DNA of 64,000 nt from assembly GCA_000237975.1 (NCBI GenBank), contig CP003179.1, forward strand, positions 2,820,270 through 2,884,269, in the 5' to 3' direction. The notes under the pieces were generated by a model that was not told where the DNA came from, ran no database searches, and saw only the letters and a program-made list of their open reading frames with translations. Both the position numbers and the translations under genes were made by a program. Origin of the DNA: Sulfobacillus acidophilus DSM 10332 (lineage in GTDB: Bacteria; Bacillota; Sulfobacillia; Sulfobacillales; Sulfobacillaceae). Shown here piece after piece: positions 40,880-48,146 of this stretch (its first letter is position 1; every line of letters starts with the position of its first letter).

Positions 40880-41356
40880 ATGGCTTCCGAAACCAAGACC
40901 CTCCGGGTCGGCGATCAAGCCCCGACGTTTCGCTTGCCGACTAAAGACGACCGCACGGTCGATTTAGCCGATTATCGCGGACGCCGCAGCGTGATTCTCG
41001 TCTTCTATCCGTTAGCCTGGACCCCCGTCTGAACGCACGAAATGCCGGCTTTCAATCAGGCGTTGCCTGAATTTGACCGGATCAATGCCCAAGTTTTGGG
41101 CATTAGTGTGGACTCCGTCCCGTGTAACACCGCTTGGGAAGCATCTCTAGGAGGACTAAACTACCCCCTCCTTTCCGATTTCTGGCCTCATGGCGCGGTC
41201 GCCGAACAATATGGCGTACTTCGTGACGAAGGTTACACCGAACGCGCCATTATTGGGATCGACAAAAACGGCGTGGTGCGTTTTATCGATGTCCATGACA
41301 TTAATCAAGTGCCCGATCCCCACGAGGTGCTCGAGGCCATGCGCCCGTACGCCTAA
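40880..41356 (+). CDS. Peroxiredoxin, probable selenoprotein with in-frame TGA at residue 51
   Basis: AhpC/TSA-family peroxidase that would reduce peroxides. Read through the TGA at 41030-41032, the frame gives 158 residues: GDQAPTFRLP, VILVFYPLAWTPV-U-THEMPAF, then SVDSVPCNTAW, YPLLSDF and VVRFIDVHD. The TGA replaces exactly the peroxidatic cysteine of FYP..TPVC. A 6-bp hairpin (41056-41070) starts 23 bases after the TGA. Cys82 could be the resolving residue. ATG at 40880 follows GAGGTGAG. Other genes here use TGA as a true stop, so recoding would be local. A nonsense mutation or sequencing error is the alternative, but both halves are intact. Confidence 0.85.
41030..41032 (+). other. In-frame TGA, probable selenocysteine codon (peroxiredoxin Sec51)
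   Basis: This TGA sits at the position of the peroxidatic cysteine in the motif TPV-x-THEMPAF, with the same frame open on both sides. Confidence 0.82.
41041..41078 (+). promoter_or_regulatory. SECIS-like hairpin in the peroxiredoxin mRNA
   Basis: TCAGGC (41056-41061) and GCCTGA (41065-41070) form a 6-bp stem with loop GTT. The loop begins with G and lies 29 bases after the TGA, within the roughly 16-37 base range of bacterial SECIS elements. A lower CCGG/CCGG stem is possible. Confidence 0.6.
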
Positions 41357-47453: not shown

Positions 47454-47570
47454 CTTGATCGTCCTTTCTGTTCGTCTGTCTTTTTCAGCATACCACGGTC
47501 GATTGCCGAAGGTCCTGGAGGTTTGCTATGCTGGGCTCATGACGTCTAGGAAAAGAAGGATACGCCGACC

Positions 47571-48146
47571 ATGTGGGACAATTGGATTACCGAACCGCTC
47601 ATCCTCGGGGTTTCCCCCGATTGGCCGGAGGATTTTGATCGGGACCTCCGGCAACATCCCTTGGTGCACGTTAAGATGGTCACCACCCCGCCTCAAGTGC
47701 CCTGGACCTGGTTTCCCCGGCACCTACGGCATATCGGTTTAGCGTCGCCTGATGCCCCCGACGTCTATCGTGTTTGGTTTTGGGGGGTGCCGAAGGGACA
47801 GGAAGAAGGGGCTTTTGAAGAGGCCGTGTTGGCCTTGGGCCGCCATCGACGGCAATTGCCGCTACCCATCGCCGACCAAGTCCGTCGTCTCACCACGCCC
47901 CTGACGCTAGCCATTCTCACCACTCCCGGCTGACCGCGTTGTGCCCAAGCCGTGCGCTGGGCTCAAGAAATGGCCTGGGTGGCGCCGGATGTCACCGTGC
48001 ATACCGTCATGCTGGATGAAGTCCCGGAATTGACCGGCACGTTAGAGATTCAAACGGTCCCGGTCATGTTTTTCAACCATGTTCGAACCGACGGCCCTCT
48101 CAACGAGTGGATGATGGCGGCCCGGCTTAATGCGCTAAACCCATAG
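47571..48146 (+). CDS. Thioredoxin-fold protein, probable selenoprotein with UxxC motif (in-frame TGA at residue 121)
   Basis: A 191-residue frame if the TGA at 47931-47933 is read through. The N-terminal 115 residues look like a degenerate thioredoxin fold; the second fold has LAILTTPG-U-PRCAQAVRWA, giving U-P-R-C in place of CxxC, and TVPVMFFN with the cis-proline. The two-fold layout resembles the AhpF N-terminal domain or protein disulfide oxidoreductases, which reduce peroxiredoxins. A hairpin follows the TGA at SECIS distance. ATG at 47571 follows AGAAGGAT. The last 20 bases overlap the convergent transporter gene. Alternative: a broken gene. Confidence 0.83.
47931..47933 (+). other. 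In-frame TGA, probable selenocysteine codon (Sec121)
   Basis: This TGA takes the first cysteine position of the CxxC active site (TTPG-x-PRC) of a thioredoxin-like domain; the frame continues for 70 codons to a normal TAG. Confidence 0.82.
47943..47962 (+). promoter_or_regulatory. SECIS-like hairpin in the thioredoxin-fold mRNA
   Basis: GCCCA-A-GC (47943-47950) pairs with GCTGGGC (47956-47962) with one bulged A and a loop CGTGC, which has a G in its first two bases. The loop is 17 bases after the TGA, at the short end of the known bacterial SECIS range. Confidence 0.6.

Follow-up and report, generated by a model that had tools for sequence, protein, structure and literature searches.

A probable selenoprotein of the AhpF N-terminal domain/PDO type from Sulfobacillus acidophilus, belonging to a distinct paralogous subfamily of the Sulfobacillales

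The read-through gene and its surroundings

The window, a stretch of 64,000 nucleotides from Sulfobacillus acidophilus DSM 10332 (CP003179.1, positions 2,820,270 to 2,884,269), carries on its forward strand a frame of 191 codons that starts with the ATG at 47571, closes with a TAG stop (48144-48146), and is interrupted in phase by a TGA at 47931-47933, which is codon 121 and begins at base 361 of the frame. Ordinary ORF calling puts the end of the gene at 47933. When the TGA is read through, the protein begins with MWDNW, passes through LTTPG-U-PRCAQAVRW, IQTVPVMFF, and DGPLNEWMM, and ends in LNP. Residue 121 is then the first residue of a UxxC motif, and U121 and C124 are the only Sec or Cys residues in the protein. 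The earlier note had placed the TGA at this position and phase, on the first Cys of a CxxC site (TTPG-x-PRC) followed by a TVPV motif with a cis-Pro; the read-through sequence bears out each of these points, the cis-Pro being Pro164. The features of the locus, in window coordinates, are the following.

47553..47559, plus strand: Shine-Dalgarno-like AAGAAGG, 11 nt 5' of the ATG (sequence; 5/6 match in the start scan)
47571..48146, plus strand: read-through CDS of a predicted Sec-containing PDO/AhpF-NTD-like protein, 191 residues plus TAG (sequence; purifying selection before and after the TGA in relatives)
47571..47855, plus strand: predicted N-terminal domain, about residues 1-95, a reduced thioredoxin fold without Cys (AlphaFold secondary structure; full-length alignment to AhpF-NTD and PDO; Cys listing)
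47886..48143, plus strand: predicted C-terminal thioredoxin domain with UxxC, about residues 106-191 (profile matches; AlphaFold; structural alignment)
47931..47933, plus strand: TGA decoded as Sec at residue 121, the first of UxxC (frame; homologue alignment)
47940..47942, plus strand: codon (TGT) of the resolving Cys124, invariant in 27 members (family alignment)
47943..47962, plus strand: putative bacterial SECIS hairpin with a bulged A at 47948, loop 47951-47955 and loop G 47952 (fold; covariation and a consensus structure seen for Sec forms but not for Cys forms; codon-choice tests)
48060..48062, plus strand: codon of cis-Pro164 of TVPV, invariant (family alignment)
48105..48110, plus strand: Glu179-Trp180, invariant C-terminal subfamily signature (family alignment)

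The gene is on its own, flanked by an esterase gene and an EamA gene, with PAPS reductase (cysH) and ATP sulfurylase (sat) just upstream. Membership in a conserved operon was rejected, since the adjacent genes are on the opposite strand and the EamA gene is the only one of them to recur, in one relative (G001). Promoter and terminator consensus scans gave no match, and neither did an Rfam scan of the 64-kb window, which indicates that no tRNA-Sec or other listed RNA lies inside it.

When the whole window was searched for TGA codons in UxxC, CxxU, or TxxU contexts, unshadowed by another ORF, three sites were left, at 47931, 41030, and 46858. The last was rejected as a Sec site, since the ATP sulfurylase gene simply ends there. 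The TGA at 41030-41032 is in frame within a Sec-peroxiredoxin gene (40880-41356, plus strand; WTPV-U-THE, a TxxU site; 158 residues with read-through), which belongs to a selenoprotein type already known. A Sec formate dehydrogenase (PMC4378227) and PrxU (PMC7409299) have already been reported in Sulfobacillus; nothing on the window protein was found in the open-access literature on Sulfobacillus selenoproteins and selenocysteine.

Selenocysteine machinery, Sec/Cys exchange and the hairpin

The source genome (two contigs, 3,557,831 bases in total, with a chromosome of 3,472,898) encodes SelA (551 bits) and SelB (339 bits, with its full C-terminal extension), as well as SelD (357 bits), which has its own in-frame TGA in an SGUGCK site, and a tRNA-Sec with the anticodon TCA. 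All components of the selenium machinery, for which the earlier note had suggested a search, are thus present.

A search of 61 genomes gave matches in 48, and reading through the frames yielded 27 members of the subfamily of the window protein, all within the order Sulfobacillales. Residue 121 is encoded by TGA in 22 members and is Cys (TGC or TGT) in the other 5, so the Cys homologues that had been proposed as a check do exist. The orthologues are just 25-47% identical to the window copy. W45, G72, P74, C124, L154, P164, E179, and W180 are invariant in all 27. In nine close subfamily pairs with usable dS, dN/dS 3' of the TGA is 0.09-0.23, similar to that of the 5' part, and it is 0.31 for the distant pair formed by the window copy and that of G001. 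Selection as strong after the TGA as before it indicates that translation continues in this frame through the second half. A deep branch of the subfamily in genus g11 (L050, L052, L054, L139) has an altered active site, UGHC (TTPGUGHCGHAVRMF).

Three Sec/Cys changes are required inside the subfamily tree. One of them coincides with the loss of SelA, SelB, and tRNA-Sec in genus g4 (G003 and G012), where none of the three was found above cut-off and where Cys is present in both paralogues, that of the window subfamily and the canonical PDO. The machinery is retained at the other two changes (G035; G007 and G023). Two genomes with a TGA form have incomplete sets: in G017, SelB and tRNA-Sec were found with no match for SelA, which is likely an assembly gap given the other two components and the 400 contigs of the assembly, and in G024 (71% complete) only SelB was found, with no SelA or tRNA-Sec above cut-off.

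The putative SECIS hairpin of the window gene has one bulged A (47948) and a 5-nt loop, CGUGC. The earlier note had described a bulged hairpin 17 bases after the TGA; the hairpin is there, and the 17 bases reach as far as the apical loop, but the stem starts 9 nt after the TGA. Its 5-bp core contains one A.G mismatch, which the bulged register avoids. When the hairpin is folded by itself, its stability does not exceed that of shuffled sequences (z -0.59), and the 54 nt after the codon, folded singly in the other members, give z near 0 in Sec and Cys forms alike; the argument for the hairpin is therefore a comparative one. The segments 3' of the codon align without gaps. Pairing in the 5-bp core amounts to 95% across 28 Sec sequences, and 13 cells are doubly changed; none of 500 shuffles scores as high, and slid registers reach at most 41% pairing, whereas in 8 Cys sequences pairing is 67.5%, which is the shuffle level. 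RNAalifold independently recovers the same hairpin.

Since the segment also encodes protein, its silent positions carry most weight in this test. The third base of Arg129 is T in all four sequences with Thr126, which puts an A in the stem, and C in 16 of the 18 others (Fisher p 0.002, uncorrected for relatedness); the T still pairs, as G-U. Similarly, the Leu130 codon ends in C in 4 of 5 sequences with Glu125 and in none of 10 with Gln (Fisher p 0.004, again uncorrected for relatedness). All 21 CGN codons at the residue 129 site end in T or C, compared with CGA and CGG making up almost half of CGN in these genes. All 22 Sec forms have a G at the first or second position of the loop, and a G in a small apical loop is a shared feature of bacterial SECIS elements (PMC1088965). 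The window hairpin, directly 3' of the UGA, has both the small apical loop and the G expected in a bacterial selenoprotein gene.

These data leave very little room for the two readings in which residue 121 is not selenocysteine. If the TGA were an ordinary stop, as standard ORF calling has it, the product would be a protein of 120 residues and the similarity downstream a pseudogene remnant; yet the identical TGA is shared by 22 members from different genera and families, with Cys codons in the remaining ones, C124, P164, E179, and W180 are invariant beyond it under the low dN/dS given above, the hairpin covaries, and the machinery is complete. We regard this reading as already contradicted and its probability as minimal. 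Some UGA read-through is common in bacteria, and the codon might instead be suppressed as Trp or Cys by a near-cognate tRNA. This is just as improbable, as the position is that of the catalytic Cys in the Cys forms, tRNA-Sec, SelA, SelB, and SelD are all encoded, the covariation of the hairpin is confined to Sec forms, and the genus that lost the machinery has Cys. Almost certainly, the TGA at 47931 stands for selenocysteine in a thioredoxin-type redox protein of two domains, in line with the earlier note: homologues run past the TGA and align beyond it, and the machinery is there to decode it.

Fold and relation to known families

An AlphaFold model based on the family alignment has a mean pLDDT of 94.6 and a pTM of 0.90. 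Foldseek ranked the AhpF N-terminal domain first and PDOs next, and VIA-align gave a Z of 22.4 for AhpF-NTD (1zyn; 177 residues, 2.0 Å) and 21.9 for the PDO 1j08, against 9 for single thioredoxins. From this full-length match, the N-terminal half is modelled as a thioredoxin fold with reduced helices, Cys-free and arranged as in AhpF-NTD, in agreement with the second, degenerate thioredoxin-like fold suspected earlier. Structure prediction, which had been suggested for finding two thioredoxin folds, thus did find them. Pfam gives only glutaredoxin and thioredoxin matches below cut-off.

The one point to correct is the remark in the earlier note that it knew of no described selenoprotein with exactly this two-fold layout. 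A Sec-containing "Homolog of AhpF N-terminal domain (Grx-like domain protein)", corresponding to TIGR02187 and having a UxxC site, has been listed since 2006 (PMC1794560, PMC9312934, PMC13188914). The proteins of this model, PDO_seleno_TRX (ABB15282.1 of Carboxydothermus; also Symbiobacterium), likewise consist of two tandem thioredoxin folds with UxxC in the second, have a SECIS right after the UGA, and have Cys homologues. The window protein has the same tandem arrangement with the active site in the second fold; TIGR02187, however, matches it only over residues 65-171, with 69.4 bits compared to a curated cut-off of 185. The canonical Sec-PDO of the same genome (L056:332-979, minus strand, in the G000:C1:1555736 region; VTPTUPYCPRAVR) scores 184.3 bits, itself narrowly below the cut-off. 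A third PDO-like paralogue (L057:236-1000, minus strand, in the G000:C1:1719410 region) is a Cys form, APTCAHSP, in which the second active-site Cys is replaced by Ser, and it adjoins a rhodanese gene.

It is unlikely, in our estimate, that the window protein is a plain member of the canonical TIGR02187 family with no separate identity. The fold and the position of UxxC are indeed shared, TIGR02187 is the best NCBIfam model, and the first fold is Cys-free in canonical copies as well. Nevertheless, its 69 bits, compared with 184 for the canonical Sec-PDO encoded alongside it, leave the window protein outside the family by that model's own cut-off of 185. In the tree, the 27 members lie on one side of a branch (support 97/96), apart from the canonical PDO copies and the third paralogue. 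In 151 genomes of the class, the subfamily profile retrieves 28 genes at 168-250 bits and everything else at 108 or less, the genes occurring only in three families of one order, among them that of the window organism. The subfamily also has its own conserved W45 and E179-W180 motifs and an N-terminal domain about 25 residues shorter, and one genome carries both it and the canonical form. A wider contig scan with strict patterns returned 8 loci, all in Bacillota MAGs, one of them titled Sulfobacillus acidophilus.

Three further known systems resemble it in part. The AhpF N-terminal domain (1zyn, 4o5q) has the fold in common over its full length, with a redox-silent first fold and an active second one, but the window protein is stand-alone: its TAG follows after 191 residues, with no fusion to a flavoprotein resembling thioredoxin reductase, it reaches 27.6 bits with the AhpF model against a cut-off of 502.9, and Sec would replace the first Cys. 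The archaeal and Aquifex PDOs (1a8l, 1j08, 2ayt) share the tandem fold (Z about 21-22), the active site of the second domain, and the cis-Pro; CxxC in both domains would be expected of an archaeal-type PDO, whereas the window protein has no CxxC in the first and Sec in the second. The Uxx-star glutaredoxin-like (seleno)proteins (NF041212) also have Sec on a glutaredoxin/thioredoxin-like fold, but theirs is a single-domain model, with which the window protein scores 15 bits against a cut-off of 66. Taken as a whole, the data are best explained by a selenoprotein of the AhpF-NTD/PDO type, a UxxC oxidoreductase in a distinct paralogous subfamily, and we hold this with high confidence. The two-fold layout itself is known; the divergent subfamily, found in acid-loving sulfur bacteria, is apparently undescribed.

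Proposed mechanism and role

Guided by the hairpin directly 3', SelB and tRNA-Sec would decode UGA 121 as selenocysteine, giving a small cytosolic oxidoreductase with a Cys-free reduced fold followed by a thioredoxin fold with UxxC and cis-Pro. The chemistry of this fold suggests that the Sec121 selenolate attacks a disulfide (or persulfide) of the partner, that Cys124 resolves the mixed selenosulfide, and that an NAD(P)H flavoprotein reductase recharges the protein. The N-terminal domain probably serves docking, by analogy with AhpF.

The neighbourhoods of relatives point to sulfur metabolism. With uniform gene placement assumed and shared ancestry ignored in the expectations, 5 of the 15 subfamily genes have a rhodanese gene at 6 kb or less (about 0.4 expected), and 5 of the 15 have a TauE/SafE gene within that range (about 0.24 expected). 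Among other PDO-like genes in 15 Sulfobacillales genomes, 17 of 36 have a rhodanese within 6 kb (1.0 expected under uniform placement, about 17x). One relative, G028, has five genes head to tail. They encode, in order, a rhodanese, an MBL-fold hydrolase, a tandem rhodanese, the selenoprotein, and a flavoprotein resembling dihydrolipoamide dehydrogenase, whose gene begins 2 nt downstream of the selenoprotein stop codon. The subfamily of this flavoprotein (L080:4657-5976, minus strand; also L094, L095, L096, L097) has GGNxxxHSLVPSK where relatives have GGxCLNxGCIPSK, which indicates that both redox-active Cys are missing in G028 and its Sulfobacillales relatives. In G022, a member of this Cys-less subfamily occurs near a tandem rhodanese.

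The window gene has no rhodanese neighbour, and a sulfur role for its product is therefore carried over from relatives. The protein likely works in sulfur handling as a cytosolic reductase, of the selenol-disulfide or persulfide kind, and the gene neighbourhoods lend moderate weight to substrates such as persulfides, rhodanese-type carriers, or the PAPS-reductase branch; we consider the sulfur role plausible, if a little short of an even chance. A more specific proposal, which we put forward only tentatively and consider unlikely as it stands, is a Sulfobacillales-specific selenol-dependent persulfide (sulfane-sulfur) reductase, whose UxxC relay would discharge rhodanese-bound or low-molecular-weight persulfides. 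The run in G028 would then pair rhodaneses, a persulfide-dioxygenase-like MBL-fold hydrolase, and the Cys-less flavoprotein with the UxxC protein, and one might speculate that the latter stands in for the lost redox disulfide of the flavoprotein. The protein might instead reduce peroxiredoxin, as AhpF-NTD does for AhpC, for example the Sec-peroxiredoxin at 40880-41356, and take no part in sulfur trafficking. AhpF-NTD is the closest structural match, the Sec-peroxiredoxin gene is 6 kb off in the window, and an archaeal PDO reduces Prx (PMC7278568); the neighbourhoods of relatives favour rhodanese and TauE, however, and Prx adjacency is known from the window only, so that we regard this role as somewhat doubtful, and less probable than one in sulfur handling.

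The selenoprotein reading has consequences for annotation and for the biology of these bacteria. The Sec subfamily is clearly bounded and is missed by the current curated model at its cut-off, and gene callers that stop at TGA would cut the protein short ahead of its active site. Genus g4, where loss of the machinery goes with replacement by Cys, is a natural experiment. The subfamily points to the use of selenium in the sulfur trafficking of acidophilic sulfur bacteria, organisms that are employed in bioleaching.
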